Of a stretch of DNA of 64,000 nt, positions 42,957-62,855 are shown in pieces; positions within the stretch are counted from its first letter, which is position 1, and each line of letters opens with the position of its first letter. The stretch comes from Burkholderia sp. BCC0322. GTDB taxonomy: Bacteria; Pseudomonadota; Gammaproteobacteria; Burkholderiales; Burkholderiaceae. Below the pieces are notes generated by a model. That model was not told where the DNA came from. It saw only the letters and a program-made list of their open reading frames with translations, and ran no database searches. The translations under genes were made by a program, and so were the position numbers. The stretch spans positions 31,527-95,526 of the forward strand of contig NZ_CADFDU010000020.1 of the NCBI RefSeq assembly GCF_902833045.1, given 5' to 3'.

Positions 42957-43664
42957 ATGGTGGGCATGAAAGTCGAAGAACGTCTGGCTACGTCGAACAG
43001 CGGGCTGGCTACGCTGGGCCGTCCGCGAGAGTTCGGCAAGAAGCAACAGAACCCGGTACGCCGGTTCGGCGGCATCGGAATCGTCCTGGTGCTGCATGCC
43101 GTGCTGATCTACGCGCTGCTCAACGGCCTCGCGACGAAAGTCGTGCAGGTGATCCAGCACCCGATCGAAACCCGCATCATCGAGCCGGTCAAGCCGCCGC
43201 CGCCGCCGCCGATGCCCGTAGTCAAGCTCCCGCCGCCGAAATTCGCGCCGCCGCCGCCGCCGTTCGTCCCGCCGCCGGAAGTGCCGGTGCAGGCGCCGCC
43301 GCAGGCGACGATCACGCACCAGTCGGCCCCGGTACCGTCCGCGCCGGCCGTGCAGGCGCCGGTCGTGGCGCCTCCGGCGCCGGCCAAGCCGGTCAGCCAT
43401 GACGTGGGGGTGGTTTGCCCGAATTCGGACACGCTTCGCGCGTCGATCCAGTATCCGAAGGAAGCGCAGGAAAACAACATCACGGGCGATGTGACCATCG
43501 AATTCGTCGTGGATGCGGAAGGGAACATCACGAACGAGCGCGTGGCGCAGTCGGCCGATCCGATCCTCGATCGCGCTGCCTTCAACACCGTGAAGCGATT
43601 CAAGTGCGTCGCGCAGGGCCAGCCGGTACGGGTCCAGGTTCCGTTCTCGTTCAATCTGAATTGA
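42957..43664 (+). CDS. tonB: TonB energy transducer
   Basis: 235 residues. A cytoplasmic lead is followed by one membrane helix (about 38-58, GIVLVLHAVLIYALLNGLA), a long proline-rich periplasmic stretch (about 74-135) and a C-terminal TonB domain with IQYPKEAQENNITGDVTIEF and VKRFKCVAQGQPVRVQVPF. TonB carries energy from the ExbB/ExbD motor to outer-membrane receptors. ATG 42957 has GGGGG upstream; ATG 42966 (MKVEERL, preceded by GGTGG) is an alternative start. First gene of the dedicated TonB operon. Confidence 0.92.
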   Translation: MVGMKVEERLATSNSGLATLGRPREFGKKQQNPVRRFGGIGIVLVLHAVLIYALLNGLATKVVQVIQHPIETRIIEPVKPPPPPPMPVVKLPPPKFAPPPPPFVPPPEVPVQAPPQATITHQSAPVPSAPAVQAPVVAPPAPAKPVSHDVGVVCPNSDTLRASIQYPKEAQENNITGDVTIEFVVDAEGNITNERVAQSADPILDRAAFNTVKRFKCVAQGQPVRVQVPFSFNLN

Positions 43665-43750
43665 TGCAGTGGGCGGTCCGGTGCGATCCGGGCCGGGAAA
43701 AACCATCTCGAACTGACGTATTAAGTTCATCGAAATAACTGGAGTGGGGT

Positions 43751-44668
43751 ATGACGAAGCGTTCACTGGCCGCGCTGGCGGCAAGCATCCTGATGTCCGT
43801 CGCGGCAATCGACGGGTTCGTTGCACCGCAACTCGCCCACGCGCAGGCAAGCGGCACGGCCGGCACACCGGCACAGGCCGCGGCACCGTCGGCTGCGCCG
43901 GCCCCGGCTCCGGCCGCCGCCGAGCCGGCTCCGCCGCCCGCGCCGGCCACGACGGAAGCGGTCGAGAATCCGTACGGGCTCGGCGCGCTATGGAAGAACG
44001 GCGATTTCGTCGCCCGTTTCGTGCTGATCCTGCTCGTGATCATGTCGATGGGAAGCTGGTACATCATGATCACGAAGTTCGTGGAGCAGTTGCGCGCCAA
44101 TCGCCGCGCGAAGCTGGCGGACGCGCAGCTCTGGTCCGCGCCGTCGCTGGCCGAGGGCGCCAAACTGCTCGACGAGGCATCGCCGTTCCGCTTCATCGCC
44201 GAAACGGCGATCGAGGCCGGCGAGCATCATGACGAGGCGCTGCTGGAAGCGGTGGACCGCAATACGTGGATCGACGTGTCGGTCGAGCGCTCGATCACGA
44301 ACGTGTCGAACCGGATGCAGGACGGGCTCGCATTCCTGGCCACGGTGGGCTCCACCGCGCCGTTCGTCGGGCTGTTCGGCACGGTCTGGGGGATCTATCA
44401 CGCGCTGACGGCCATCGGCATCGCCGGCCAGGCGTCGATCGACAAGGTCGCCGGCCCGGTGGGCGAGGCGCTCATCATGACCGCGATCGGCCTCGCCGTC
44501 GCGGTGCCGGCGGTACTCGGCTACAACTTCCTGGTCCGGCGCAACAAGTCGGTGATGGAGCGGGTCCGCAACTTCGGCGCGCAACTGCACACGGTGCTGC
44601 TGGCCGGCAATCGGCGCCCGGTACGCGCGTCGTCGTCGTCGCCGGCGGCTGCGTCGCTCGCGAACTGA
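43751..44668 (+). CDS. exbB: ExbB proton-channel subunit
   Basis: 305 residues. The first 35 residues look like a signal peptide (ILMSVAAIDGFVAPQLAHAQ), followed by an Ala/Pro-rich linker. The MotA/TolQ/ExbB core has three helices: about 93-115 (FVARFVLILLVIMSMGSWYIM), and TVGSTAPFVGLFGTVWGIYHAL and the following AIGLAVAVPAVLGYN. Partner of ExbD in the proton-driven motor for TonB. The C-terminal tail is Ser/Ala-rich. It is 86 bases after tonB. Confidence 0.93.
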   Translation: MTKRSLAALAASILMSVAAIDGFVAPQLAHAQASGTAGTPAQAAAPSAAPAPAPAAAEPAPPPAPATTEAVENPYGLGALWKNGDFVARFVLILLVIMSMGSWYIMITKFVEQLRANRRAKLADAQLWSAPSLAEGAKLLDEASPFRFIAETAIEAGEHHDEALLEAVDRNTWIDVSVERSITNVSNRMQDGLAFLATVGSTAPFVGLFGTVWGIYHALTAIGIAGQASIDKVAGPVGEALIMTAIGLAVAVPAVLGYNFLVRRNKSVMERVRNFGAQLHTVLLAGNRRPVRASSSSPAAASLAN

Positions 44669-44688
44669 TCGGCTGACGGAGACGCGCG

Positions 44689-45111
44689 ATGGCCATGAAC
44701 GTCGGGCAGGACGATAGCGACGAGGTGATCGCCAACATCAACACGACGCCGCTCGTCGACGTGATGCTGGTGTTGCTGATCATCTTCCTGATCACGATTC
44801 CGGTCGTGACGCACACGATCCAGCTTCAGTTGCCGAAGGAGACGGTGCAGCCGCTGCAGACGACGCCGAAAAGCGTCGAGATCGCGGTGAACCGGGACGG
44901 CGATTTCTTCTGGGGCGAACAGCTGGTGGATGCACAGACGCTGCTCGCGAAGCTGAAGGACGTGTCGCAGCAGCAGCCGCAGCCGAGCGTCCACGTGCGG
45001 GGCGACCAGAACACGCGCTACGAGTTCATCGGCCGGGTGGTCACGATGTGCGAGCGCGCTGGGATCGCGAAGCTGTCGTTCATTACCGAGCCGCCTGCGC
45101 GCGGTGGATAG
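44689..45111 (+). CDS. exbD: ExbD biopolymer transport subunit, first copy
   Basis: 140 residues. Short cytoplasmic N-terminus, a single helix carrying the essential aspartate in NTTPLVDVMLVLLIIFLITI, then a periplasmic domain (VHVRGDQNTRYEFIGRVVTMCERAGI). It is the peptidoglycan-facing partner of ExbB. Starts 20 bases after exbB. Confidence 0.93.
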   Translation: MAMNVGQDDSDEVIANINTTPLVDVMLVLLIIFLITIPVVTHTIQLQLPKETVQPLQTTPKSVEIAVNRDGDFFWGEQLVDAQTLLAKLKDVSQQQPQPSVHVRGDQNTRYEFIGRVVTMCERAGIAKLSFITEPPARGG

Positions 45112-45178
45112 TCGCGCGCGGGAATCGTGGTGGAACAGGGGGCTGGCGGCAAGTGGGGGAGCGCTGACGCCGGTTGGC

Positions 45179-45276
45179 TGCGAAGGACGGGATCTGCGTG
45201 AGCGCTAAAGCACTGACGCGGGTCGACCGCGAAGCATGGGACCCGCGTAAGCGCTGAAGCGCTAACGCGGGTCGAC
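45179..45276. repeat. Tandem intergenic hairpin repeat, copy 2 (two 49-base units)
   Basis: Two 49-base units (45179-45227, 45228-45276) differ at only a few positions, each with a 10-base link (TGCGAAGGAC or CGCGAAGCAT) and a 39-base core ending ACGCGGGTCGAC. A degraded third unit end precedes them (45160-45178). Within the second core, CCCGCGTAAGCGCT can pair with AGCGCTAACGCGGG with one mismatch, a long stem. The repeat ends CGACAGGAG, which is the ribosome binding site region of the second exbD. It matches the element at 28170-28263. Confidence 0.85.
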
Positions 45277-45287
45277 AGGAGTCGAAG

Positions 45288-45719
45288 ATGGGAATGAATG
45301 TGCCTTCGGGCGGTAGCAACGCCGAACCGGAAGTGATGGTCGATATCAACACCACGCCGCTGATCGACGTGATGCTGGTGTTGCTGATCATGCTGATCAT
45401 CACGATCCCGATTCAGATGCATTCGGTGAAGATGGACCTGCCGGTCGGTAATCCACCGCCGCCGGCCACGCCGCCGGAAATCGTGCAGATCGACATCGAC
45501 TTCGACGGCACGACGACCTGGAACGGTGCGCCGGTGCCGGACCGCGCGGCGCTCGAGTCGAAATTGACCCAGGTGGCGGCGGAACCCGTGCAGGCGGAGA
45601 TCCACCTGCGTCCCAACAAGCTGGCGCCATACAAGGACGTGGCCGCCGTGCTCGCATCCGCGCAACGCGTGGGCGCGACCAAGATCGGCCTGATCGGTAA
45701 CGAACAGTTCATGCAATGA
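45288..45719 (+). CDS. ExbD biopolymer transport subunit, second copy
   Basis: 143 residues, paralogous to the previous gene: NTTPLIDVMLVLLIMLIITIPI carries the same aspartate, then a periplasmic domain (IHLRPNKLAPYKDVAAVLASAQ). It is separated from the first exbD by 176 bases holding a tandem hairpin repeat that ends in its ribosome binding site. Two ExbD proteins with one ExbB and one TonB suggest a mixed or alternating motor, as in some TonB systems that serve large receptors. Confidence 0.92.
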   Translation: MGMNVPSGGSNAEPEVMVDINTTPLIDVMLVLLIMLIITIPIQMHSVKMDLPVGNPPPPATPPEIVQIDIDFDGTTTWNGAPVPDRAALESKLTQVAAEPVQAEIHLRPNKLAPYKDVAAVLASAQRVGATKIGLIGNEQFMQ

Positions 45720-45735
45720 AGACACGGACGAGCCG

Positions 45736-46926
45736 ATGAACCAGCAACGATGGAAACAGCTGATGGCGGTGACGGCGCTCGGCGCGGCCGGCCTGTTCGG
45801 ACGCCCGGCGTTGCCGGCGGACGCGCTGCGGCCGGACGTGGCGAAACCGTTGGCGGCCGCGCAGGAGCTGTACCGGGCGCACAAGTATCGCGACGCGCTC
45901 GGCAAGATCGCCCAGGCGGCGGCCGTGCCGAACCGGACGCCGTACGAAACCTACATGGTGGAGGAGATGCGCGGCGCGGCAGCGATGGCGGCCGGCGACT
46001 CGGGCACGGCCGCGCAGGCCTACGAGAGCGTGCTGAACTCGGGACGGCTGTCGGGCGAGGACGAACAGCGGACAACGGCGGCGCTGGCCGGCATCTACTT
46101 CCAGCAGAAGAACTACCCGCTGGCGATCCGGGTCGCGCAGCGCTACCTGAAGGCGGGTGGCTCGGATCCGGAAATGCGCACGCTGCTCACGCAGTCTTAC
46201 TACCTGTCCAACGATTGCGCGCCGCTCGTGAGCCAGTTGAAAGCGAGCACGGACGCGCAGGCGAATGGCGGACACGCACCGGATGAAGGGCAGCTGCAGA
46301 TGCTGGCGACCTGTGCGCAGAAAGTGAAGGACGGCAACGCCTATCGCGGTGCGCTCGGACTGCTGGTGGCTTATCACCCGAGCCCCGCGTACTGGGACGA
46401 AATGGTTACCGCCATTCGCGGCAACCCCGGTTATCTGCCGTCGCTCGACCTCGACATCTACCGGTTACGTCGCGCAACGGGCTCGCTCGCGACCGCCAAC
46501 GCGTACATGGAGATGACACAGCTCGCGCTGGTTGCGGGGTCACCCGCCGAGGGCAAGCAGGTGATCGACCAGGGGTTCGCGTCCGGCGTACTCGGCAAGG
46601 ACGCGCAGGCGGATCGCGAGAAGCGGCTGCAGACGCTCGCCGCAAAACGCGCGCAATCGGGCGGCGATGCCACGACACCGGCAGCGCCGATCGACGCGGG
46701 CATGAACCTCGTCTTCGCGGGTCATGCGCAGGAGGGGCTGCAGATGATGGAGCAGGCGATCGCGAAGGGAGGGCTCGAGCATCCCGATGCGGCGCGGCTG
46801 CGGCTCGGCGAGGCGTATTACGTGGCCGGCCAGAAGACGCATGCGGTCCAGGTGCTGCGCACGGTCAAGGGTACCGACGGTTCCGGTGATCTGGCACGGC
46901 TCTGGACGGTGGTGGCGTCACGGTAA
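45736..46926 (+). CDS. Tetratricopeptide-repeat periplasmic protein of the TonB operon
   Basis: 396 residues, with an N-terminal hydrophobic stretch (LMAVTALGAAGLFGRPALPA) that looks like a signal peptide. The rest is helical with TPR-like spacing: AAAQELYRAHKYRDALGKIAQA, AAMAAGDSGTAAQAYESVL, TTAALAGIYFQQKNYPLAIR and LRLGEAYYVAGQKTHAVQVL. TPR proteins linked to TonB clusters (TtpC in Vibrio) help TonB reach large receptors; a similar role is inferred. It starts 16 bases after exbD2. Confidence 0.8.
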   Translation: MNQQRWKQLMAVTALGAAGLFGRPALPADALRPDVAKPLAAAQELYRAHKYRDALGKIAQAAAVPNRTPYETYMVEEMRGAAAMAAGDSGTAAQAYESVLNSGRLSGEDEQRTTAALAGIYFQQKNYPLAIRVAQRYLKAGGSDPEMRTLLTQSYYLSNDCAPLVSQLKASTDAQANGGHAPDEGQLQMLATCAQKVKDGNAYRGALGLLVAYHPSPAYWDEMVTAIRGNPGYLPSLDLDIYRLRRATGSLATANAYMEMTQLALVAGSPAEGKQVIDQGFASGVLGKDAQADREKRLQTLAAKRAQSGGDATTPAAPIDAGMNLVFAGHAQEGLQMMEQAIAKGGLEHPDAARLRLGEAYYVAGQKTHAVQVLRTVKGTDGSGDLARLWTVVASR

Positions 46927-47038
46927 CGCAACGGAAGTACACGGCCGCGCGCAACGCGAGCGGTCGGAAAGCGGTGTGCCGCCGCGATCGCACCCATGCA
47001 CGACGAGCAGGTAAGCCGATGGAAAGGGGCAATCTTGT

Positions 47039-47226: not shown

Positions 47227-47802
47227 ATGGTTTTGCCCCCTGATGAGTCGGTGCTCGTTGCCGTGTCGCTCGGCAACAAGATCCGGGCGCTGCGCCAGCG
47301 CCTGAAACTCACGCTCGACGAAACGTCGACGATCGCCGGCATTTCGAAGCCGTTCCTGTCGCAGGTCGAGCGCGGGCGAGCGACGCCGTCGATCACGTCG
47401 CTGGTGCGGATCGCGAAGGCGCTGGGCGTGACGATGCAGTACTTCATCGACACGCCGACGGAAGCGCGCTCGGTATGCCGCGGCAACGCGCTGCAGTATT
47501 TCCAGTTCACGAACTCGGCCAGCCGGTTCGCCAGGCTGACGAACCCGGTGGACAGCCGCAAGCTCGACGCGATTCTCGTCCGGATGCCGGCGGGGCAGCT
47601 TCCGTCCGAGATGACGACGCACGCGGGCGAGGAGTTCGTCTACGTATTGCGCGGGCAGTTGGCGCTGACGCTGGAGGATTGCACGTTCACGCTGAACGAG
47701 GGCGATACCGCGCATTACGAATCGACAATGCCGCATGCGTGGCGCAATACGGCCGACGAAGAGGCGGTGATCGTCTGGGTCGGCACGCCCAGGCTGTTCT
47801 AG
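47227..47802 (+). CDS. XRE-family regulator with C-terminal cupin
   Basis: 191 residues. Residues 11-68 are the XRE helix-turn-helix (IRALRQRLKLTLDETSTIAGISKPFLSQVERGRATPS, shown over the segment positions 17-52), and residues about 105-190 are a small cupin barrel (MTTHAGEEFVYVLRGQLALTLED, with H/E ligands, and YESTMPHAWRNTADEEA). Such proteins sense small metabolites through the cupin. The start at 47227 has GAGGGA about ten bases upstream; a longer open frame from 46996 lacks the family's N-terminus. It sits between the TonB operon and the receptor gene and is the likely local regulator. Confidence 0.88.
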   Translation: MVLPPDESVLVAVSLGNKIRALRQRLKLTLDETSTIAGISKPFLSQVERGRATPSITSLVRIAKALGVTMQYFIDTPTEARSVCRGNALQYFQFTNSASRFARLTNPVDSRKLDAILVRMPAGQLPSEMTTHAGEEFVYVLRGQLALTLEDCTFTLNEGDTAHYESTMPHAWRNTADEEAVIVWVGTPRLF

Positions 47803-47937
47803 CGAAGGCGGCCGGCAGGAAGGAGAAATACCCGATCGGATGCGGAGGGGGGGCATCAAGGCGCGCACACAGGCTCGCCGCGTGCAGAACCCGCTGTCCG
47901 CCGAATCGGGAAGAAGCAGGCAATGCGCTCAATGTAG

Positions 47938-47955: not shown

Positions 47956-48138
47956 CAAAATAGAAAACAACGGTGACGCTGGATGGTGCGGGTGACCCGA
48001 GGCCGATCCGTTCGAGTCGTGGCAGTCGAAAGCGTGGCAATCGCGGGTTCCGGTACACGGGCACCCAGGACGCGCAAGGAATTCACAAGGTTCCGGCGCA
48101 CAGCAGGTGGGGTCTTACTACGAGCGAGAGGGAAGAAA

Positions 48139-50931
48139 ATGAAGCAGAGAGTGTTGGCGTTGGCAATCAAGAGGATAGTCTGGGCGGAACTGGCGCTGAC
48201 GGCCGCACTGGCGCCGCCGGCGTTCGCCCAGAGCCAGCCGGCGCCGGGCGCCGTCGCGATCGCGGATGCGGTCGCGAGCGGCGCGCCCGTGACCGTTGCA
48301 CAGGCGGGCGGCACGGCGGGCAGCGCCGCGGCACCGGACGCTGCGGCGCCCGATGCGGCACCCGGTGCAGCGGCCGAGGCGACGCCTGCCGCACCCGCCG
48401 CGAACGGGCAGGGCAAGGTCGCGCAGATCAAGCGGTTCGAAGTGACGGGCTCGCTGATCCGGCAAGCCGACAAGACGGGTTTCCAGCAGGTGCAGACGAT
48501 CACGCCGAAGGAAATCCAGGCCAGCGGCGCGGTGACTGTCGCCGACTTCCTGCGCGATGCGGCAGCCAACTCGGCGAACAGCTGGGGCGAAGGGCAGTCG
48601 GGCAACTTCGCGGCCGGAGCAGCCGGCATTGCACTGCGCGGCCTCTCGGAGAAGTACACGCTCGTGTTGGTCGACGGCCAGCGCGTCGCGCCGTATGCAT
48701 TCTTCTCGAACAGCGTCGATTCGTTCTTCGACCTCAACACGATCCCGCTCAACGACATCGAGCGGATCGAAATCGTGAAGACGGGCGCCGTGTCGCAGTA
48801 CGGTTCGGACGCGATCGGCGGTGTCGTCAACATCATCACGAAACACAATTTCCGCGGCCTGCAGCTCGACGGCAGCCTCGGCAGCGCGATCAACGCCGGC
48901 AATGGCGACGGCACGATGAAGTTCGGCGTGCTCGGCGGCTTCGGTGACCTGAACGCCGACCGCTTCAACGTGACGGCCGCGCTCAGCTACTACAAGTCGA
49001 ACGGCTTCACGCTGGCCGACCGTGATTCCACGCGCAACCAGGACTTCACGGGCAAGCCGGGCGGCTTCTCGCTGCTCGCGCCGTCCTACTGGAACATGCC
49101 CGACGGCAGTGCGCAGGCGCTTAGCGGCGGCTGCCCGTTCGGCGGCTCGGTTCGTCCGGCCGCGTCGAATTCGCTGTCGGCCGGGTTGCCGGGCACCGTC
49201 TGCGGGTACAACACGGCGGAAAGCACGTCGATCCTGCCGATGACCGAGCGCCTGAACGCGAAGCTCCATGGTGACTTCAAGATCGACGACAAGACGACCG
49301 CGTTCGCCGACTTTCTGGAGAGCTACAACACGACCACGACCAACGACGGCCTGTGGAACAACGTGATCGGTAACTCGCAGAACCCGGCGCTCGTCTGGAA
49401 TCCGCAGACGAAGCTGCTGTCGCCGTTCAACTACACGGTACCGGCCAGCAACCCGTACAACACGACCGGCGCGGCCACGCCGCTCACCTATGCGTTTCCG
49501 AACACGGTCGCGCAAAAGACCTGGGCCAACTACTGGCGGGCGGCCGCCGGCATCAAGGGGTCGTTCACGCTGCCGTACGGCGACTGGGACTGGGCGACGT
49601 CGGTCAGCCATTCGCAGAGCACTGTGTCGAACGTGTTCACGAACCAGCTGAATGTGAATGCGCTGAACAACATCTACCAGAACGGCACGCTGAATTTCGC
49701 GAACCCGGCCGCGACGCCGAACGCGTTCAACGGTCTCTATCAGGAGGCGAACAACCTCGGCATCTCGAAGCTCGACACGATCGATGCGACGCTGTCGACG
49801 CCGAACCTGTTCCATCTGCCGGCCGGCGACGTCGGCATCGGCTTCGGCGCGCAGTTCACGCACCAGAGCGAAACGCTGACGCCGGGTTCCGAGTACCTGA
49901 GCGGGGCCGTCATCACACCGGACCTCGAGACGGTGGATGGCCAGCGCAACGTCGCGGCTATCTATTACCAGATCAACATACCGATCATCGAGAACCTGAC
50001 GTTCAGCCAGGCAGGCCGCTACGATCACTACACCGACGTGGGCGGCGCTTTCTCGCCGCGCTTCGCGTTGCGGTACCAGCCGATCAAGGCGCTCACGTTG
50101 TATACGTCGTACAACCGCGGCTTCCGCGCGCCGACCTTCGTCGAGGACAGCAAGTCGCAGACGCTCGGCATCCAGGTCGATCCGGCCACCGGCCAGAACT
50201 ACACGTCGATCACCGTCGGCAACCCGAACCTCGCGCCGGAACGCACGCGCAACCTCAATATCGGCTTTCAGGTCTCGCCGAGCCGTTACACCGACCTCAG
50301 CTTCGACTGGTACAAGATCCGCATCGACAACGTGATCGGCCAGGGCAAGCCATCGCAGGTCGTGACCGACCCGACGACCGGCCAGCTGCTGTACAAGGTG
50401 ATTCCGTACCAGAACCTCGGCTACCTCGACACGAACGGCTTCGAAGGCACGTTCCGCCAGGGCCTGCCCCTGAAGGGCTGGGGCACGATTACGCTTTCGG
50501 GCGACTGGGCTTACGTCAACAGCTACAAGATCGGCTTCCCGGGCGCCGCGCCGGTCAACGGCGCGGGCAACAACTTCACGATCACGCAGCCGTTCGGCGG
50601 CAGCTTCCCGCGCTGGCGCGGCAACACGACGCTGGACTGGAACTACCGGAAGTTCGATGCGGCGCTGACGTGGCAGTTCACGGGCCCGTACGCGCAGAAC
50701 CTGATGCCCGAGCCGAGCAAGGTCGGTTCGTACAGCCAGTTCAACCTGATGGTGACGTACACGGGCTTCAAGAACTGGACGATCTACGGTGGCATCGACA
50801 ACCTCTTCAACCGCACGCCGCCGTACGACCCGATCTTCGCGAACGGCACGCTGAGCCAGAGCGGGTACGACACGTCGGTGTACTCGTACATCGGCCGGTT
50901 CGCGCAGGTCGGCGCGACGTACAAGTTCTGA
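48139..50931 (+). CDS. TonB-dependent outer-membrane receptor
   Basis: 930 residues. Signal peptide (1-30), then a 60-residue Ala/Pro low-complexity stretch, a TonB-box-like segment KRFEVTGSLIRQ (about 98-109), the plug domain (to about 230: TPKEIQASGAVTVADFLRDA, RGLSEKYTLVLVDGQRV, VKTGAVSQYGSDAIGGVVNIIT) and a 22-strand barrel ending in TYKF. Strand motifs such as SYNRGFRAPTFVEDS and NLAPERTRNLNIGFQ are typical. The class is not diagnostic for siderophores and includes receptors for peptides and sugars. Placement between a dedicated TonB complex and a peptide ABC importer suggests it passes the same substrate across the outer membrane. Confidence 0.92.
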   Translation: MKQRVLALAIKRIVWAELALTAALAPPAFAQSQPAPGAVAIADAVASGAPVTVAQAGGTAGSAAAPDAAAPDAAPGAAAEATPAAPAANGQGKVAQIKRFEVTGSLIRQADKTGFQQVQTITPKEIQASGAVTVADFLRDAAANSANSWGEGQSGNFAAGAAGIALRGLSEKYTLVLVDGQRVAPYAFFSNSVDSFFDLNTIPLNDIERIEIVKTGAVSQYGSDAIGGVVNIITKHNFRGLQLDGSLGSAINAGNGDGTMKFGVLGGFGDLNADRFNVTAALSYYKSNGFTLADRDSTRNQDFTGKPGGFSLLAPSYWNMPDGSAQALSGGCPFGGSVRPAASNSLSAGLPGTVCGYNTAESTSILPMTERLNAKLHGDFKIDDKTTAFADFLESYNTTTTNDGLWNNVIGNSQNPALVWNPQTKLLSPFNYTVPASNPYNTTGAATPLTYAFPNTVAQKTWANYWRAAAGIKGSFTLPYGDWDWATSVSHSQSTVSNVFTNQLNVNALNNIYQNGTLNFANPAATPNAFNGLYQEANNLGISKLDTIDATLSTPNLFHLPAGDVGIGFGAQFTHQSETLTPGSEYLSGAVITPDLETVDGQRNVAAIYYQINIPIIENLTFSQAGRYDHYTDVGGAFSPRFALRYQPIKALTLYTSYNRGFRAPTFVEDSKSQTLGIQVDPATGQNYTSITVGNPNLAPERTRNLNIGFQVSPSRYTDLSFDWYKIRIDNVIGQGKPSQVVTDPTTGQLLYKVIPYQNLGYLDTNGFEGTFRQGLPLKGWGTITLSGDWAYVNSYKIGFPGAAPVNGAGNNFTITQPFGGSFPRWRGNTTLDWNYRKFDAALTWQFTGPYAQNLMPEPSKVGSYSQFNLMVTYTGFKNWTIYGGIDNLFNRTPPYDPIFANGTLSQSGYDTSVYSYIGRFAQVGATYKF

Positions 50932-50963: not shown

Positions 50964-51008
50964 AGGCCGCTCCACGTCCACTACCCCCTTTTCGGGGCGG
51001 CCTTTTTT
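50964..51008 (+). terminator. Rho-independent terminator after the receptor gene
   Basis: AGGCCGC (50964-50970) pairs with GCGGCCT (50997-51003), with an inner CCCC/GGGG stem, then six T. The ABC importer genes therefore have their own promoter or rely on read-through. Confidence 0.85.
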
Positions 51009-54158: not shown

Positions 54159-55224
54159 CCCGGCGTGCGTCGCGTGCGCGGCCTCGCCGTCGCCGTGGCG
54201 GCGCACGTGGCTGCGCTTTCGCGCGCAGCCGCTCGGGTACTGGAGCCTCGTGATCTTCACCGTGCTGTTCGCGCTCAGCCTGGGTGCGGACCTGCTGTCG
54301 AACGACCGGCCGCTGATCGTGCGCTACGACGGGCACTATTACTTCCCGATCGTGAAGGACTATCCGGAAACCCTGTTCGGCGGCGATTTTCCCGCGATGA
54401 CGAACTATCTCGATCCGTATATCCGCTCGAAGCTCGAGTCGCACGGCAATTTCGCGATCTATCCGCCGAACCGCTATCGTTACGACACGATCGACTATTT
54501 CGCGTCGCGGCCGTATCCGGCGCCGCCGTCGTCGAGCAACTGGCTCGGCACCGACCAGTTCGGGCGCGACGTGCTCGCGCGGCTGCTGTACGGGTTCCGC
54601 CTGTCGGTGCTGATGGCGTTCGCGCTGACCGTGTCGGGCGTGCTGGTGGGCGTGCTGACCGGCGCGCTGCAGGGCTTCTACGGCGGCCGCACCGACCTGG
54701 TCGGGCAGCGCCTGATCGAGATCTGGAGCGCGCTGCCGGACCTGTACCTGCTGATCATCTTCGCGTCGATCTTCACGCCGTCGCTGTGGCTGCTGTTCAT
54801 CCTGCTGTCGATGTTCGGCTGGCTCGTGCTGTCCGACTACGTGCGTGCCGAATTCCTGCGCAATCGCGCGCTCGACTACGTGAAAGCGGCGCGCACGATG
54901 GGGCTGACGAACGCGCAGATCATGTGGCGCCACGTGCTGCCGAACAGCCTCACGCCGGTGATCACGTTCCTGCCGTTCCGGATGAGCGCGGCGATCCTGT
55001 CGCTGACGAGCCTCGACTTCCTGGGCCTCGGCGTGCCGCCGCCGACGCCGAGCCTCGGCGAGCTGCTGCAGGAGGGCAAGAACAACCTGGATGCGTGGTG
55101 GATCTCGATCGCGGCGTTCGCGGCGCTGGTGGTGACGCTGCTGCTGCTCACCTTCATGGGCGATGCGCTGCGCAACGCGCTCGACACGCGCACGCGCGGT
55201 TCGGCATTCGGCGGAGGGCGGTGA
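54112..55224 (+). CDS. yejE: Peptide ABC transporter permease (YejE-like)
   Basis: 370 residues. The N-terminus (MSSSTPASSSTAW...) is cytoplasmic and low-complexity; the first helix is about 42-62. The long periplasmic segment with NDRPLIVRYDGHYYFPIVKDYPE is specific to YejE. The EAA loop is VKAARTMGLTNAQIMWRHVLPN, and SLDFLGLGVPPPTPSLGELL is conserved in DppC-type permeases. The ATG lies inside the 3' end of yejB, and no later good start exists before the first helix. Confidence 0.92.
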   Translation: MSSSTPASSSTAWTTDPACVACAASPSPWRRTWLRFRAQPLGYWSLVIFTVLFALSLGADLLSNDRPLIVRYDGHYYFPIVKDYPETLFGGDFPAMTNYLDPYIRSKLESHGNFAIYPPNRYRYDTIDYFASRPYPAPPSSSNWLGTDQFGRDVLARLLYGFRLSVLMAFALTVSGVLVGVLTGALQGFYGGRTDLVGQRLIEIWSALPDLYLLIIFASIFTPSLWLLFILLSMFGWLVLSDYVRAEFLRNRALDYVKAARTMGLTNAQIMWRHVLPNSLTPVITFLPFRMSAAILSLTSLDFLGLGVPPPTPSLGELLQEGKNNLDAWWISIAAFAALVVTLLLLTFMGDALRNALDTRTRGSAFGGGR

Positions 55225-56867
55225 TGACGCGACCGTTGCTGCAGATCGACGGGTTTTCCGCGCATTTCGGCGCGAACGCGGCCGTCCAGGACCTGAGCCT
55301 GTCGATCGGCCGCGGCGAGCGCGTGGCGCTCGTCGGCGAGTCGGGGTCGGGCAAGAGCGTGACCGCGCTGGCGATCCTGCGGCTCGCGCAGCAGGCGACG
55401 CTGTCGGGGCGGATGCTGTTCGACGGCGAGGATCTGCTCGCGAAGACCGAGCAACAGATGCGCGGGATTCGCGGCGCCGATATCGCGATGGTGTTCCAGG
55501 AGCCGATGACGGCGCTCAATCCGCTGTATACGATCGGCAAGCAGATCGCCGAGAGCCTGCGGCTGCACGAAGGGCTGCGCCCGGGCGACGCGCGCGAGCG
55601 CGGGATCGCGCTGCTGCGGCGCACCGGGATTCCGGAGCCGGAGCGGCGCATCGACAGCTTCCCGCACCAGCTGTCGGGCGGGCAGCGGCAACGCGCGATG
55701 ATCGCGATGGCGCTGGCGTGCCGGCCGCGCTTGCTGCTGGCGGACGAGCCGACCACCGCGCTCGACGTGACGGTGCGCCAGCAGATCGTCGATCTGCTGA
55801 TCGAACTGCAGGAGCAGGAGGCCGCCGCGCGCGGGATGGCCGTGCTGCTGATCACGCACGACCTGAACCTCGTGCGGCGCTTCGCGCAGCGTGTGGCCGT
55901 GATGGAGAAGGGCGTGCTGGTGGAAACCAACACGACCGCCGAGCTGTTCGCGGCGCCGCAGCACCCGTATACGCGCCGGCTGCTCGACAGCGCGCCGCAA
56001 CGGGCGGTCGAGCCGGTCGCCGCCGGCGCGCAGACGATCCTCGACGTGCGGCATCTCGCCGTCGACTACCGGATCGCGGCAAAGGGCTGGCGCTCAGTGC
56101 TCGGCAAGACGACGTTTCGCGCCGTGCACGACGTGCAGCTGAGCCTGAAACGAGGCGAAACGCTCGGGATCGTCGGCGAGTCGGGCTCGGGGAAATCGAC
56201 GCTCGCGGCCGCGGTGCTCGGCCTGCAGCGGCCGGCGTCGGGCGGGATCGAGATCGACGGCATGCCGCTGGCGTCGCTGCGCACGACGCAGGGCCGGCGC
56301 ACGCTGTACGGGCGCATGCAGGTGGTGTTCCAGGATCCGTTCGGCTCGCTGTCGCCGCGCATGACGGTCGAGCAGATCGTCGGCGAAGGGCTGGGCGTGC
56401 ACCGGCCGCAGGTGGCCGGCGACGCGCGGCGGGCGCGGATCGCCGCGCTGCTGCAGGAGGTCGGCCTGCCGGCCGAGGCGATGCTGCGCTATCCGCACGA
56501 GTTTTCCGGCGGGCAGCGGCAGCGGATCGCGATCGCGCGGGCGCTGGCGGTGGAGCCGGAGCTGCTGGTGCTCGACGAGCCGACGAGCGCGCTCGACGTG
56601 TCGATCCAGAAGCAGGTGCTGAATCTGCTGACGAATCTTCAAAAGAAGTACAAACTCAGCTACCTGTTCATCACGCACGATCTGGCGGTGATGCGCGCGA
56701 TGGCCCACCGGGTCATCGTGATGAAGGCGGGGCGCGTGGTCGAGGCGGGCGAGACGCTCGACGTGCTGCACGCGCCGTCCCATCCGTATACGCGGGCGTT
56801 GCTCGCGTCGTCCATGCTGGCGCCCGAGCATGGCCCGCAGCAGAGGCAAGAGAGAACCGATGATTGA
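55224..56867 (+). CDS. yejF: Peptide ABC transporter ATPase with two nucleotide-binding domains (YejF-like)
   Basis: 547 residues from ATG 55224, which overlaps the yejE stop by one base (TGATG). Two ABC domains in tandem: Walker A GESGSGKSVTA and LSGGQRQRAMIAMAL with LLADEPTTALD in the first, and GESGSGKSTLAAAVLGL, FSGGQRQRIAIARAL and LVLDEPTSALDVS in the second. YejF energises peptide import through YejB/YejE. It overlaps the metallopeptidase gene by eight bases. Confidence 0.93.
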   Translation: MTRPLLQIDGFSAHFGANAAVQDLSLSIGRGERVALVGESGSGKSVTALAILRLAQQATLSGRMLFDGEDLLAKTEQQMRGIRGADIAMVFQEPMTALNPLYTIGKQIAESLRLHEGLRPGDARERGIALLRRTGIPEPERRIDSFPHQLSGGQRQRAMIAMALACRPRLLLADEPTTALDVTVRQQIVDLLIELQEQEAAARGMAVLLITHDLNLVRRFAQRVAVMEKGVLVETNTTAELFAAPQHPYTRRLLDSAPQRAVEPVAAGAQTILDVRHLAVDYRIAAKGWRSVLGKTTFRAVHDVQLSLKRGETLGIVGESGSGKSTLAAAVLGLQRPASGGIEIDGMPLASLRTTQGRRTLYGRMQVVFQDPFGSLSPRMTVEQIVGEGLGVHRPQVAGDARRARIAALLQEVGLPAEAMLRYPHEFSGGQRQRIAIARALAVEPELLVLDEPTSALDVSIQKQVLNLLTNLQKKYKLSYLFITHDLAVMRAMAHRVIVMKAGRVVEAGETLDVLHAPSHPYTRALLASSMLAPEHGPQQRQERTDD

Positions 56868-58311
56868 CGAGAACCGGGCGCCGGGCGCCCGAGCCGTGCA
56901 GGCGGCGCAGGCGTTGCGCAGCGACGCCGATTTCTGGTCGCTGCGCATCGTCGACGAGACGATCGACGAACACGCAGTGCGCAACGACGTCGCGCAGCCG
57001 TTTTCTCGGACGCGCGAGCGCGGCGCGATGCTGACGGCCTGGGCCGGCACCGGCGCGGGCTATGCGGCGACGCCGGACCTGTCCGCAGCCGGGTTGCAGG
57101 CGGCGCTCGACATCGCCACCGCGCGGGCGCGGGCCAGCGCGCCGTGGGCGCTGGTCGATCATCGTCAGGCTGCGCGCCCGCAGGCGAGCGGCACGTATGC
57201 GTCGCCGGATGTCGACGCGGCGCTGCCGTCGCGCGCGGAATGGATCGAGCGTCTCGCGCACGAATGCGCGGCGGCGAACCTCGGCGCACGGATCGTCGAG
57301 CGCGCGGCGAGCGTGATGATCGTGCACACCGAGCAGTGCTACGTGACGAGCGACGGCGTGCGGATCGACCAGCGCTTCCGCTTCCTGATGCCCGAGTTGC
57401 AAGCGGTTGCCCATGGCGACGGCGACACGCAGACGCGCTCGCTCGGTCAATCGGGCACGCTGGCGCAGGGCGGCATCGACGTGCTGGAGCGCTACGGTTT
57501 CGACGGCGCCGGCGTTCGTATTGCCGACGAGGCGCTGCAGTTGCTCGCCGCGCCGAACTGCCCGGCCGGCCGGCGCGACCTGCTGCTGATGCCGGACCAG
57601 ATGATGCTGCAGATCCACGAGTCGATCGGGCATCCGCTCGAGCTCGACCGGATTCTCGGCGACGAGCGCAACTTCGCCGGATCGAGCTTCGTCAGGCCGG
57701 AGATGGTCGGCCACTATCAATATGGCTCGCCGCTGCTGAACGTCACGTTCGATCCGGAGCCTGCGGCCGAAGCCGCGTCCTACGCGTTCGACGACGACGG
57801 CACGCCGGCGCGCAAGCAATACCTGATCCGCAACGGCGTGCTCGAACGGCTGCTCGGCGGGGCGCTGTCGCAGCAGCGTGCGGGCCTGCCGGGCGTGGCC
57901 AACTCGCGCGCGTCGAGCTGGAACCGCGCGCCGATCGACCGGATGGCGAACCTGAACGTCGAACCGGGCGACCAGTCGCTCGATGCGCTGATCGCGGGCA
58001 CCGAGCACGGGATCCTGATGCGGACCAACACGTCCTGGTCGATCGACGACCACCGCAACAAATTCCAGTTCGGCTGCGAATTCGGGCAACTGATCGAGAA
58101 CGGCCGGCTCACGCAGGTCGTCAAGCGCCCGAACTACCGCGGCATCTCCGCCCAGTTCTGGCGCAGCCTGCGCGCGGTCGGCGATGCGAGCACGTTCGGC
58201 ATTTACGGCACGCCGTACTGCGGGAAGGGCGAGCCTGCGCAGATCATCCGGGTCGGCCACGCCGCGCCGACCTGCGTGTTCGCCGGCGTCGACGTATTCG
58301 GAGGCGCGTGA
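56860..58311 (+). CDS. TldD-like metallopeptidase (catalytic subunit)
   Basis: 483 residues. The zinc motif H-E-x3-H is at H253-E254-H258 (QIHESIGHPLELD), and the TldD-type cysteine C454 is present in GTPYCGKGEPAQ. TldD/TldE hetero-oligomers thread unfolded peptides into a closed cavity and cut them, as with microcin B17 precursor. ATG 56860 overlaps yejF by eight bases, so it is co-translated with the peptide importer. This copy differs from the housekeeping tldD, which would normally stand elsewhere. Confidence 0.88.
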   Translation: MIDENRAPGARAVQAAQALRSDADFWSLRIVDETIDEHAVRNDVAQPFSRTRERGAMLTAWAGTGAGYAATPDLSAAGLQAALDIATARARASAPWALVDHRQAARPQASGTYASPDVDAALPSRAEWIERLAHECAAANLGARIVERAASVMIVHTEQCYVTSDGVRIDQRFRFLMPELQAVAHGDGDTQTRSLGQSGTLAQGGIDVLERYGFDGAGVRIADEALQLLAAPNCPAGRRDLLLMPDQMMLQIHESIGHPLELDRILGDERNFAGSSFVRPEMVGHYQYGSPLLNVTFDPEPAAEAASYAFDDDGTPARKQYLIRNGVLERLLGGALSQQRAGLPGVANSRASSWNRAPIDRMANLNVEPGDQSLDALIAGTEHGILMRTNTSWSIDDHRNKFQFGCEFGQLIENGRLTQVVKRPNYRGISAQFWRSLRAVGDASTFGIYGTPYCGKGEPAQIIRVGHAAPTCVFAGVDVFGGA

Positions 58312-59672
58312 TGACGGGATTCGATCCGATGGCACGCCGTGGCGGAATCGACTGGTACGCGTATTTCACGCGGCTCGCCGAGGACGCGCAACGGCTGACG
58401 ACGCCCGCCGAAACCGTGCTGCTCGGCTTCTCCGGCGAAACGTCCGACTTCATCCGCTTCAATGGCGGCAGGATTCGCCAGACCGGACGCGTCACGCAGG
58501 GGCGGCTGTCCGTGCGGCTCGTCGACGGGGCGCGACAGGCGCACTCGACGCTGACCGTCTGCGGCGATCCGGCGGCCGACCTGCGCGAACTGGCGCACGC
58601 GGTTGCCGTGTTGCGCGACGGCCTGCGCGATGCGCAGGACGACCCGCACCTGCTGTTCGACACCTCGTCGTGGGTGCAGGAAACGCGCCGCACCGGGCGC
58701 CTGCCGGATGCGGACGGGCTCGCGCGAATCGTGGCCGAATGCGCGCGCGGGCTCGACTTCGTCGGTTTTTACGCGGGCGGCACGCTGGCGCGCGGCTTCG
58801 CATCGTCGACCGGCAGCCGCGGCTGGTACGAGGTCGAGAATTTCAACTTCAGCTGGTCGCTGTACGACCCGAGCGGCCGCGCGATCAAGACCGTCCATGC
58901 GGGCGACGACTGGCGCGATGAAGTGTTCGCGGCCAAGGTCGACGCGGCCGCTGCTCGGTTGCCCGTGCTCGGCCGCACGCCGAAGGCGCTTGCCCCCGGG
59001 CGCTATCGCGCGTACTTCACACCGGACGCCATTCTCGAGATGACGAGCCTGCTCGGCTGGAGCGGCTTCTCGGCGCGCGCCGTGGCGAGCGCCCGCAGCC
59101 CGCTGCATCGCCTGTACGCCGGCGAGGTCGCGCTCGATCCGCGCGTGTCGATCACCGAGGATTTCTCGCTGGGCATCGCGCCGGCGTTCAACGCGGACGG
59201 CTACCGGCGCGACAGCGTGCCGCTCGTCGTCGAAGGGCGGGGCGCCGGGCAGCTCGTGTGCGCACGCACCGCGCGCGAGCACGGGCGCACGCCGAACGGC
59301 GCGGACAACGCCGAATCGCCGCAGTCGCTGACGATCGCGGGCGGCACGCTCGCCGATGCCGACGTGCTGGCCGCGCTCGACACGGGGCTCTACGTCGGCA
59401 ACCTCTGGTACCTGAACTTCTCGGACCCGATCGCGTGCCGGATGACGGGGATGACGCGCTTCGCGACGTTCTGGGTCGAAGGCGGGCGCATCGTCGCGCC
59501 GGTCGACGCGATGCGGTTCGACGACAGCTTCTACCGGCTGTTCGGGTCGGCGCTCGAGCAGCTCGGCGCGGTGCCGGCGCTGCTCGCGAACGACGACACG
59601 TACGGCGAGCGGGCCACCGGAGGCGCGCGGCTGCCGGGGCTGCTCGCGCGTTCGTTCGAGCTCACGCTGTAG
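58311..59672 (+). CDS. TldE/PmbA-like partner subunit
   Basis: 453 residues from ATG 58311, overlapping the preceding stop codon by one base. The PmbA/TldD fold is seen in TVLLGFSGETSDFIRFNGGRIRQTGRV and later YVGNLWYLNFSDPIACRMTGM, but the H-E-x3-H zinc motif is absent, as in TldE. It is needed with the TldD-like subunit for peptide cleavage. The two genes follow the yejABEF-type importer, which implies action on imported peptides. Confidence 0.87.
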   Translation: MTGFDPMARRGGIDWYAYFTRLAEDAQRLTTPAETVLLGFSGETSDFIRFNGGRIRQTGRVTQGRLSVRLVDGARQAHSTLTVCGDPAADLRELAHAVAVLRDGLRDAQDDPHLLFDTSSWVQETRRTGRLPDADGLARIVAECARGLDFVGFYAGGTLARGFASSTGSRGWYEVENFNFSWSLYDPSGRAIKTVHAGDDWRDEVFAAKVDAAAARLPVLGRTPKALAPGRYRAYFTPDAILEMTSLLGWSGFSARAVASARSPLHRLYAGEVALDPRVSITEDFSLGIAPAFNADGYRRDSVPLVVEGRGAGQLVCARTAREHGRTPNGADNAESPQSLTIAGGTLADADVLAALDTGLYVGNLWYLNFSDPIACRMTGMTRFATFWVEGGRIVAPVDAMRFDDSFYRLFGSALEQLGAVPALLANDDTYGERATGGARLPGLLARSFELTL

Positions 59673-59693
59673 CGCGTTCGCCGACACTCGCCG

Positions 59694-62600
59694 ATGCCGT
59701 CATTCTTCATCGACCGTCCGGTATTTGCGTGGATCGTCGCGCTCGCGATCGTCGTCGCGGGCGTGCTCGCCATTCCGCAGTTGCCGATCGCGCAGTATCC
59801 GCGCCTGGCGCCGCCGCGGGTCGTGATCACCGCGTCCTACCCGGGCGCGTCGACCGAGACGGTCGATGCCGACGTCGGCAGCATCATCGAGGAAAGCCTC
59901 GACGGCGCCGACGGGCTGCTGTACTACGAGACGAGCAGCGACGGCCACGGCAACCTCGAGATCGACGTGACGTTCGCGCCCAGCACCGATCCGGACATCG
60001 CGCTCGTCGACGTCAACAACCGGTTGAAGCAGGTCGAGCCGCGGCTGCCGCAGCAGGTCGTCCAGCAGGGGATCGGCGTGTTCAAGGCGGCGAACACGTT
60101 CCTGATGCTCGTCACGCTGACGTCGACCGACGGCACGCGCGATTCCGCGCAGCTCGGCGATTACCTGAACCGTTACGTCCTGCGCGAGCTCAAGCGTGCG
60201 CCGGGTGTCGGTGCGGCCGAGCTGTGGGATGCCGACGAGGCGCTGCGCGTCTGGCTCGATCCGGTCAAGTTGCGCGAGTACGATCTCGGCGCCGATGACG
60301 TGATCGCGGCAATCGGCGCGCAGAACGCGACGGTCACGGCCGGCGCGATCGGCGACGCGCCGTTCGTGCGCGGCCAGCAGCTCACCGCGACAGTCGTGGT
60401 CAAGGGCCAGCTCACGTCGCCCGAGGAGTTCGGCCGGATCGTGCTGAAGTCGAAACAGGACGGCTCGGTGGTGCGCGTGGCCGACGTCGCGCGCGTCGAG
60501 ATCGGCCGCGACGACTATTCGTTCTATTCGCGGTTGAACGGGCGGCCAGCCGCGACGGTCGGCATCCAGCTCGGCCCGCGCGGTAATGCGCTCGAAACGT
60601 CGAACGCGATCCGCGCGCGGCTCGCGGAACTCTCGCGGACGCTGCCGCCGGGCGTGGCGGTCGAGATTCCGTTCGACGGCGCGCACTTCGTCAAGATCGC
60701 GATCCACGAAGTCGTGCTGACGCTCGTCGAGGCTGTCGTGCTGGTGTTCTGCGTGATGTGGCTGTTCCTGCGCGACCTGCGCTACACGTTGGTGCCGACC
60801 GTCGTGATTCCGGTCACGCTGATGGGCGCGTTCGTCGCGATGTGGGCGTTCGGGCTGTCGATCAACGTGTTCACGATGTTCGGCCTCGTGCTGGCGATCG
60901 GCATCCTGGTCGACGATGCGATCGTCGTCGTCGAGAGCGTGCACCGTGTGATGGAGGAGGGCGTGCTGCCGCGCGAGGCCACGCGCCGGGCCATGAAGCG
61001 GATCGGCGGGGCGATCGTCGGCGTGACCGCGGTGCTGACCGCCGTGTTCGTGCCGATGGCGTTTTTTCCGGGCAGCGTCGGCGGCATCTACCGGCAGTTC
61101 GCGGTCGCGATGATCGCGTCGATGCTGGTTTCGTCGTTCATGGCGCTGTCGCTCACGCCCGCGCTGTGCGCGAACCTGCTGAAGCCGGTCGCGCGACACG
61201 ATGGCGGCGCCGGCCGTGCGCAGCGACGCGGCATCGGCGCGCGTCTGGCCGACCGGTTCGGTGCGGCCTTCGCGCGCGCCGAAACCGGTTATCGCCGCGT
61301 CGCCGTGTTTGCCGTGCGTCGCACCGGCGTGGTCGTGGCCGTCTATGCGGCGCTCGTGATCGGATGCGGGCTGCTGTACTGGATGATGCCGGGCGGTTTC
61401 CTGCCGACCGAGGACCAGGGACAACTGCAGGTGATGATCCAGTTGCCGGCCGGCGCCACGCAGGCGCGCACGCTCGCGGTCGTCGAGCGTGTGGAGGCGA
61501 TCCTGCACGGGGAGCCGGCGATTGCGAACGTGACGAGCGTGATCGGCTGGAGTTTCGTGGGCAGCGGGCAGAACGTCGGGATGGCGTTCGTGGAACTGAA
61601 GGACTGGGCGAAGCGCGACGTCGACGCGATGGCGTTGCGCGACCGGCTCAACACGCGTTTCGGCGCGATCCTCGACGGCGATGTCGAAGCGGCGCTGCCG
61701 CCTTCGGTGCGCGGCATCGGGCATTCGGACGGCTTCACGTTCCGGCTCGAGGATCGCGGCGGGGTCGGGCTCGACGCGTTGAAGGCGGCCCGCGAGCAGC
61801 TTGCCGAGCGCGCGAAGGCGGATTCGCTGCTTTCCGCCGTGCATTTCGAGGACCTGCCGGACGCGCCGCGCATCGAGCTCGATGTCGATCGCGCGAAGGC
61901 ATATGCGCTTGGCGTGCCGTTCGAGCGGATCGCAGGGCTGCTGGGCGGCACGTTTGGCTCGAACTACATCAACGACTTTCCGGCGTCGGGCCGGATGCGG
62001 CGGGTGATCATCGAGGCCGATCCGGAAGCTCGTGCGACCGATACGCAGCTGATGGCGCTGACCGTGCCGAACCGCACCGGCGACATGGTGCCGCTGTCGG
62101 CGATTGCCGCGCCGCACTGGACGATCGGGCCGGTGATGCTGAACCGGTACAACGGTTATCCGTCGCTCGACATCAGCGGCCGGGCGGCCACCGGCACGAG
62201 TTCGGGCGCGGCGATGGCGGAGATGGAGCGGCTTGCCGGTGCGCTGCCGGCCGGGATCGGCTTCGACTGGGTCGATGCGGCGCGCGAGGAGCAGATCGCC
62301 GCGCGGCAGACGCCGCTGCTCGTCGGGCTGTCGGTGCTCGCGGTTTTCATGGCGCTGGCCGCGCTGTACGAAAGCTGGACGATTCCGCTGTCCGTGCTGA
62401 CGATCGTGCCGCTCGGCATGATCGGCGCGCTCGCGGCGGCGCTCGCGCGCGGCATGCCGAACGACGTGTATTTCAAGGTCGGGATGATCACCGTGGTCGG
62501 GCTGGCGGCGAAGAACGCGATCCTGATCGTGCAGTACGCGCGTGACCTGGCCGGGCGCGGCGTGCCGCTGCGGCAGGCGGTGATCGACGCGGCCGCGGCG

Positions 62601-62855
62601 CGCTTCCGGCCGATCGTGATGACGTCGATGGCGTTCCTGCTCGGTGTCGTGCCGCTCGTGCTGGCGACGGGCGCAGGCGCGGAAAGCCGGCGGTCGATCG
62701 GCACGGGCGCGTTCGGAGGCGTGCTGGCGGCGACGGTGTTCGGGCTCGTGTTCGCGCCGGTGGCGTTTCGGGTTGTCGCGTCCGTGGGCCGGCGTGGTCG
62801 GCGCGTGGGGACGGCCACGCACGATGCGCGTCAGGCGGAGACGGTTCGGGAGTGA
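59694..62855 (+). CDS. RND efflux pump subunit without local adaptor (AcrB/HAE1 type)
   Basis: 1053 residues, 12 helices. MPSFFIDRPVFAWIVALAIVV is the HAE1 start; the proton-relay aspartates are in GILVDDAIVVVE, the lysine of helix 10 in GLAAKNAILIVQ, and the pore/exit regions (FKVGMITVVGL) are typical. No adaptor or outer-membrane factor gene is adjacent; the gene follows the TldE-like gene by 21 bases, in the same direction. It may borrow an adaptor from elsewhere and could expel the imported compound or its cleavage product. Confidence 0.9.
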   Translation: MPSFFIDRPVFAWIVALAIVVAGVLAIPQLPIAQYPRLAPPRVVITASYPGASTETVDADVGSIIEESLDGADGLLYYETSSDGHGNLEIDVTFAPSTDPDIALVDVNNRLKQVEPRLPQQVVQQGIGVFKAANTFLMLVTLTSTDGTRDSAQLGDYLNRYVLRELKRAPGVGAAELWDADEALRVWLDPVKLREYDLGADDVIAAIGAQNATVTAGAIGDAPFVRGQQLTATVVVKGQLTSPEEFGRIVLKSKQDGSVVRVADVARVEIGRDDYSFYSRLNGRPAATVGIQLGPRGNALETSNAIRARLAELSRTLPPGVAVEIPFDGAHFVKIAIHEVVLTLVEAVVLVFCVMWLFLRDLRYTLVPTVVIPVTLMGAFVAMWAFGLSINVFTMFGLVLAIGILVDDAIVVVESVHRVMEEGVLPREATRRAMKRIGGAIVGVTAVLTAVFVPMAFFPGSVGGIYRQFAVAMIASMLVSSFMALSLTPALCANLLKPVARHDGGAGRAQRRGIGARLADRFGAAFARAETGYRRVAVFAVRRTGVVVAVYAALVIGCGLLYWMMPGGFLPTEDQGQLQVMIQLPAGATQARTLAVVERVEAILHGEPAIANVTSVIGWSFVGSGQNVGMAFVELKDWAKRDVDAMALRDRLNTRFGAILDGDVEAALPPSVRGIGHSDGFTFRLEDRGGVGLDALKAAREQLAERAKADSLLSAVHFEDLPDAPRIELDVDRAKAYALGVPFERIAGLLGGTFGSNYINDFPASGRMRRVIIEADPEARATDTQLMALTVPNRTGDMVPLSAIAAPHWTIGPVMLNRYNGYPSLDISGRAATGTSSGAAMAEMERLAGALPAGIGFDWVDAAREEQIAARQTPLLVGLSVLAVFMALAALYESWTIPLSVLTIVPLGMIGALAAALARGMPNDVYFKVGMITVVGLAAKNAILIVQYARDLAGRGVPLRQAVIDAAAARFRPIVMTSMAFLLGVVPLVLATGAGAESRRSIGTGAFGGVLAATVFGLVFAPVAFRVVASVGRRGRRVGTATHDARQAETVRE

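Follow-up and report, generated by a model that had tools for sequence, protein, structure and literature searches.

Genes for an outer-membrane receptor, an inner-membrane importer and a cytoplasmic peptidase that lie in one row raise the question of whether they serve a single route and, if so, what travels along it. The row studied here is a block of 14 genes, all on the plus strand, at 42957..62855 of a 64,000-nucleotide stretch (the window) of contig NZ_CADFDU010000020.1 from Burkholderia sp. BCC0322. It encodes TonB, ExbB and two ExbD proteins, a TPR protein, an XRE-cupin regulator, a TonB-dependent receptor, a solute-binding protein (SBP) with a YejBEF-type importer, a TldD/TldE-type peptidase pair (tldDE) and an RND permease, and gene calls as well as HMM matches confirm every one of these names, places and orientations, as they stood in a preliminary description of this DNA (Table 1). 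By similarity alone the window falls into the Burkholderia cepacia complex (Bcc), the closest named TldD homologues being those of Burkholderia aenigmatica, lata and puraquae (97-98%). On balance, and with moderate confidence, we read the island as dedicated to TonB-energised uptake of a modified peptide natural product that other microbes make.

What ties the parts together is, above all, that most relatives keep them linked. Scanning named genomes yielded 543 TldD relatives, the best 80 of which were analysed, a sample that leans to close kin. Conservation of the gene order, proposed as a check in the preliminary description, was found for the most part: at 59 of these 80 loci called yejB-yejE-yejF genes lie directly upstream of tldD in the same order, whereas tldDE stand without an importer at 20 and one (L014, Burkholderia paludis) has yejF remnants only. 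Where flanks are long (59 loci that match yejF and extend 9 kb or more to each side; L014 is in this set, L029 is not), tldE occurs in all 59, yejB and the SBP in 58 each, the receptor in 56, the RND permease in 52, the XRE regulator in 44 and a tandem pair of GNAT acetyltransferase genes 3' of tldE in 42; a TonB-motor gene is visible in 19 and a motor or TPR gene in 35, both numbers being lower bounds, as the flanks end about 10 kb out. The 20 importer-less loci, some with just 0.2-9 kb of flank on one side, have no RND, receptor, motor or tandem GNAT genes, and one RimL-like GNAT among them. The motor itself is mobile in position, being upstream in the window and in Trinickia L073, L077, L080 and L083 and downstream on the opposite strand in L019, L022, L026 and L034, and a different exbB-exbD-tonB set sits beside the same importer in 8 of the 59 loci. 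On the TldD tree the importer-tldDE state is clustered (11 changes versus 33.0 in shuffles), a count to which near-copies contribute, which includes nine long-branched rows flagged as unsure (L092 among them) and which takes L120, L122, L125 and L092 as import-linked, where the importers belong to other kinds or are distantly related. Because of this tree and of a copy on a Pseudomonas aeruginosa plasmid with a similar inventory, we rejected the idea that importer and tldDE adjoin by chance within one clade. So, as previously claimed, the island genes do belong together rather than being linked by chance, and since relatives keep, lose, swap and rebuild the parts, these parts are suggested to work together.

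That P. aeruginosa copy, on plasmid CP124675.1, reads tldD-tldE-ABC exporter-tonB-exbB-exbD-receptor-SBP-yejB-yejE-yejF-adaptor-RND-GNAT (gene names from annotation; adaptor, RND and GNAT by Pfam). Its identity to the window is 57% for TldD, 55% for YejF, 54% for YejB, 50% for YejE, 46% for RND, 44% for TldE, 38% for ExbD, 37% for ExbB, 33% for the SBP and 28% for the receptor; its TonB and adaptor have no match in the island, its GNAT is 26-33% like the GNATs of relatives and, unlike the window, its RND gene has an adaptor gene beside it. Of 72,556 plasmid records, 3 contain the 13.4-kb stretch from tldD to yejB at 99% or more (only one of them was read for yejF, adaptor, RND and GNAT), and to judge from its occurrence on plasmids of P. 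aeruginosa the island may be able to move. The 12-row clade that holds the plasmid TldD has 11 other members, Pseudomonas wherever named, and these show no matching importer in the stretches examined, three of which extend less than 2.5 kb upstream. A route from the cell surface to peptidase and pump has been assembled at least twice, from parts that are distantly related.

Receptor relatives (E up to 1e-100) occur in 45 of 249 Pseudomonas genomes, and 19 places in 18 of these 45 were read (L144-L163; stretches of 17-20 kb, one of 35 kb). Receptor, SBP, yejB and yejE are found at all 19, yejF at 18, exbB with exbD at 14 (the motor genes being missing at the other five), a matching tonB at three, an ABC exporter like that of the plasmid at two (L152, L160) and an RND pump at one (L154), and none has tldD within the stretch read. 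Since these places carry the block without tldD, receptor and importer are a module in their own right, which exporters and tldDE joined in some lineages. The preliminary description had held that genes found unlinked in relatives would speak against one unit, and this is what we see in part: tldDE lack the importer at 20 of the 80 named loci, and receptor and importer go without tldDE at 19 of 19 Pseudomonas places and in five Burkholderia islands with a putative deletion scar (see below).

Between otherwise near-identical islands it is the receptor alone that differs. Among 1225 island pairs compared (50 loci with a usable receptor call), the 66 with YejF at 95-100% have receptors at 52-100% (lower quartile 57), while their SBPs never fall under 88% nor their TldD under 91%. 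Compared per 300 bases, the DNA of L064 and L068 agrees at 86-98% over regulator, SBP, importer and tldDE and at 49-78% in the receptor gene; the same dip is seen in L063/L067, L044/L037 and L035/L037, the latter two being low (53%) also in the stretch before the receptor (901-1200), whereas the contrast pair L064/L063, with like receptors, keeps 65-93% across the receptor stretch. L068 is without part of the GNAT stretch. Receptor exchange could stem from selection for other ligands or against phages or bacteriocins that use the receptor. As a separate observation, single islands hold tandem divergent receptors (L020, L021, L028) or second SBPs (L031, L045).

What the analysis shows is the gene content, the intact catalytic motifs, the linkage kept in relatives, the distant second assembly, the loss of single modules and the differences confined to receptors; all transport and chemical steps, their order and a peptide natural product as substrate are inferred. 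The receptor would bind a modified peptide outside the cell, the private TonB-ExbB-ExbD1/ExbD2 motor would drive it to the periplasm and the YejA-like protein with YejBEF would move it to the cytoplasm, where the TldD/TldE-like peptidase may trim it from the N-terminus; in many relatives, albeit not in the window, two GNATs may then acetylate the released product, and the RND permease - with adaptor and outer-membrane partners encoded elsewhere - may expel toxic or spent products, the XRE-cupin protein switching the system via small-ligand sensing. On the uptake side, the TonB C-terminal domain, ExbB, the Asp motif of ExbD and the receptor's plug and barrel are all present, as are a family-5 SBP, two BPD permeases and a double ATPase, whose two Walker A motifs and two signatures are intact, in a single gene row; solved relatives of the SBP are PDB 4ony (1e-102), 7z8e, YejA 7z6f and MbnE 5icq. 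The membrane Asp of ExbD and the RND motifs (Table 1) are proton-path residues. As yejB, yejE and yejF all score under the NCBIfam cut-offs and a second YejA-like protein (53% identity) occurs in G001, the nearest genome compared, the importer is a Yej-like paralogue rather than canonical Yej. PmbA_TldD domains lie in two tandem genes, and zinc ligands (HExxxH plus a C-terminal Cys) are in TldD only, which has HESIGH at 253 and CGK at 454, both motifs missing from TldE; TldD passes the Pfam cut-off and stays far under those of canonical TldD equivalogs (71.9/513 and 88.6/635 bits). In alignment it conserves the catalytic Glu and zinc ligands that PMC5810440 gives for E. coli TldD (Glu263; His262, His267, Cys454). 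The pump has the HAE1 permease of tripartite RND efflux and neither an adaptor nor an outer-membrane partner gene beside it from tonB to the window end, so the label self-contained, used in the preliminary description, fails for export. Elsewhere in the window (12951-18783, minus strand) there is a separate second RND set that looks complete; its ORFs, to go by reading and weak similarity alone, resemble an outer-membrane factor, a permease and an adaptor.

Several observations weigh against this scheme. Nothing that we found identifies the substrate, and the acetylation step depends on GNAT genes that the window lacks. Of 25 genomes from the genus Burkholderia (G001-G025), 16 have the module's SBP (at least 80%), ten its TldD (as two pieces in G015) and nine both; G010 and G023 have the SBP and not the TldD. 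Five (G004, G013, G019, G021, G022) keep tonB-yejF and rnd at the same site after ybaK and lack tldDE (the G004 receptor is called as two pieces and the G013 contig stops after rnd), and at their yejF-rnd junctions a short tldD-start-like sequence is followed by rnd upstream sequence. This remnant is best read as a deletion scar, which implies that tldDE would have been present and later lost, and on the strength of these five islands we rejected tldDE as an obligatory step. The reverse is seen in L014, where the importer is lost (yejF remnants of about 60%) and tldDE-rnd retained. The RND gene is absent from 7 of the 59 long-flank named loci and from G009, G025 and G011, while G007 has it in pieces. 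Of 18 genomes with stand-alone tldDE, three carry at another place an SBP close to the module's (68-77%), and one of these three is P. dilworthii (L056), from which L032 also comes; since the other 15 have no close SBP relative (at least 68%) and instead paralogues at 51-53% (36-40% in four Pseudomonas), tldDE also work without this importer. The best reading is that trimming, acetylation and efflux are optional add-ons to import. Short matches (37-72 bp, 78-95%) to the island's far side near ybaK, found in 7 of 15 genomes without module TldD, hint at an empty island site.

Parts of this arrangement have known counterparts. The Spp importer of P. aeruginosa, to which NppA1A2BCD is a related system, is of the peptide ABC type. 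SppR-SppABCD is described as a TonB-dependent receptor co-transcribed with an ABC importer for xenosiderophore uptake (PMC12506151; reference title in PMC12728205), and like it the island has its receptor gene next to its ABC importer; the passages that describe it make no mention of a private TonB motor, TldDE, GNAT or RND, and the likeness is one of described arrangement. With E. coli YejABEF the island shares SBP, permeases and double ATPase from the same subfamilies, yet its importer falls under the Yej cut-offs and comes with its own receptor and TonB motor. Similarly, TldD/TldE are of the E. coli heterodimer type, with the zinc site (HExxxH and a Cys) confined to TldD, though far under the equivalog cut-offs and encoded with an importer. 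In E. coli, import and immunity genes for microcin C lie apart. According to the introduction of PMC9239234, microcin C is imported by YejABEF, peptidases strip its peptide and the GNAT MccE2 acetylates the processed toxin, and a title in its reference list has TldD/E activate Yersinia McC inside producing cells. Import, peptide trimming, acetylation and export are thus functions common to both sets; for microcin C, trimming falls to PepA, PepB and PepN and export to the MFS protein MccC, while the island adds a TonB-receptor step. In contrast to the microcin C set, none of the island genes was recognised as mcc-type, nor was an MccB-type nucleotidyltransferase or precursor among those identified by HMM, for which window and genome were not searched. 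The view that the chain is undescribed therefore needs trimming: receptor plus co-transcribed importer is known, and what seems new is the addition of a private motor, TldDE, GNATs and RND, for which no title describing this gene set was among the open-access matches listed (subscription papers being mostly outside). Such a route offers a handle on peptide natural products exchanged by Gram-negative bacteria, and the exchangeable receptor makes ligand choice testable; if the cargo is an antibiotic, there would be a bearing on uptake-based sensitivity or tolerance, and the island would point to a way of entry for peptide drugs.

What, then, might be carried? A metal-loaded peptide xenosiderophore or metallophore could be pirated, being imported whole, freed of its metal by TldDE or GNAT and exported as empty chelator by RND. 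Pairing import with export suits chelator recycling, the receptor plug resembles Cir and FepA-type plugs, and Methylocystis MbnE, which binds methanobactin, is among the solved relatives of the SBP. The nearest described arrangement, SppR-SppABCD, is likewise said to import xenosiderophores in PMC12506151, albeit with 'putative' in the title of the original. The regulator, however, is an XRE-cupin protein, and no Fur-box-like site lies near the genes, the best hits (13/19 matches) to the Fur-box consensus being at position 500 and twice within exbD2; with no such site upstream of receptor or motor, no sign of Fur regulation was found, a weak argument against an iron siderophore. GNAT and TldDE, moreover, are not known as components of siderophore uptake systems. 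All in all we consider piracy possible, with the balance clearly against it. Where uptake of a foreign peptide natural product is extended to defence, competitors' peptide antibiotics would be imported and stripped by TldDE, and the warhead acetylated and pumped out, so that weapons become food and the surroundings are cleared while receptor swaps track soil antibiotics; this capture-and-defuse scenario is, we think, unlikely.

Alternatively, ordinary or modified oligopeptides may be scavenged for nitrogen, with TldDE as a general cytoplasmic peptidase and RND as an overflow valve. Peptide ABC importers are commonly nutritional, and in L120, L122 and L125 (3 of 20 stretches read) the same tldDE subfamily has importers of a more distant, Dpp-like type nearby, together with peptidase genes of types S9 (L120) and M3 (L122). 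Against this, each of 26 Burkholderia genomes examined has a second Yej-type SBP (51-55%), and plain nutrition, in our judgement, seldom comes with a TonB motor of its own, a receptor open to exchange, GNATs in tandem and an RND pump, which makes mere scavenging rather improbable. Yet another option is that the cell processes a peptide of its own, a secreted precursor being re-imported, cut by TldDE, acetylated and re-exported as signal or antibiotic. TldD/E do cleave the microcin B17 leader (PMC5810440), and some 5 kb downstream of the island B. stagnalis has a radical-SAM/insulinase cluster that includes a gene for a 55-aa peptide. On the other hand, this cluster was seen only in B. stagnalis-type stretches (L091, G011; few relatives were read that far), no gene for an own-peptide precursor was recognised in the island, where small ORFs were not searched systematically, and the receptor differences suit foreign ligands better. 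We hold own-peptide processing to be very improbable and, as it is confined to that species' stretches, have rejected the cluster as cognate product. Taken by itself, it spans 27767-35612 of L091 (also in G011), comprises three radical-SAM genes, an insulinase-type protein, the 55-aa peptide gene and AzlCD, and looks like a peptide natural-product cluster.

As for expression of the island, the genes from sbpA through yejB, yejE, yejF, tldD and tldE to rnd are tightly packed or overlapping (gaps of 13, -47, -1, -8, -1 and 21), and around regulator and receptor the spacing widens to 324, 336 and 307 bp. Because of these wider gaps and a terminator-like hairpin after the receptor gene, the island may be transcribed as several units, albeit that the hairpin has a fold z of only -0.99 and was not listed by a simple terminator scan, and that promoter and terminator scans did no better than shuffles (2 vs 1.8; 8 vs 11.5). 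The leader before the receptor gene (48010-48138) is near-invariant in six Bcc rows, non-coding and partly retained in G007. A riboswitch in it was rejected: conserved though it is, it matches nothing in Rfam at the curated threshold (one match is at chance level) and folds no better than shuffles (z 0.35). So was the idea that it encodes an N-terminal extension of the receptor, because of a 1-nt gap in L011 and an in-frame stop in L012. Similar TTAG-centred sequences, seen by eye upstream of the regulator and upstream of the receptor, may be candidate operators of the regulator. Upstream of tonB, 42823-42850 form a perfect 12-bp inverted repeat (ATTCGAATTGAA / TTCAATTCGAAT), which has two differences in G001 and is unrecognisable in G007, G025 and G009.

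Table 1. Features of the island, with positions in the window and the matches or remarks that go with each.
Feature	Position	Strand	Matches and remarks
tonB	42957..43664	+	PF03544 62.4 bits; proline-rich linker and TonB C-terminal domain
exbB	43751..44668	+	PF01618 (MotA_ExbB) 112.5 bits
exbD1	44689..45111	+	PF02472 103.4 bits; TPLVD motif retained
exbD2	45288..45719	+	PF02472 88.3 bits; TPLID motif retained
TPR protein	45736..46926	+	PF13432; apparent signal peptide (by eye); 16 bp 3' of exbD2
XRE-cupin regulator	47251..47802	+	HTH_3 and Cupin_2; start uncertain, longest ORF from 46996
Untranslated leader of receptor gene	48010..48138	+	conserved in alignment of six Bcc rows
TonB-dependent receptor	48139..50931	+	PF00593 barrel and PF07715 plug; exchangeable among relatives
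Terminator-like hairpin and T-run, 3' of receptor gene	50964..51008	+	conserved in Bcc rows
sbpA, YejA-like solute-binding protein	51239..53092	+	PF00496 (SBP_bac_5); start maybe 51170
yejB-like permease	53106..54158	+	NF011712 431.8 bits, cut-off 445
yejE-like permease	54112..55224	+	NF011596 389.8 bits, cut-off 439
yejF-like double ATPase	55224..56867	+	NF011713 619.5 bits, cut-off 834
tldD-like metallopeptidase subunit	56860..58311	+	PF19289, PF01523; PDB 5nj5 3.1e-22
tldE-like partner	58311..59672	+	PF19289 76.2 bits; without HExxxH zinc motif
RND (HAE1) efflux permease	59694..62855	+	NF000282 1303.7 bits, cut-off 1250; ACR_tran; VDDA, AKNAI and TSMAF motifs

The TPR gene follows exbD2 in several relatives too and is not at that place in G025, G009 and G011. 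Related genomes have a further TldD of 26-28% identity, and the TldE subfamily (E up to 1e-30) occurs in 27 of 300 genomes of an order-wide sample and in 16 of 398 of a phylum-wide one, samples that overlap and of which the latter includes six weak matches (1e-32 to 4.2e-31). The two GNATs of L042 reach 100.7 and 109.3 bits with N-acetyltransferase PRK10140, under its cut-off of 236, and in L031 (12771-13934) a 387-aa protein consists, by reading, of two GNAT-like halves.

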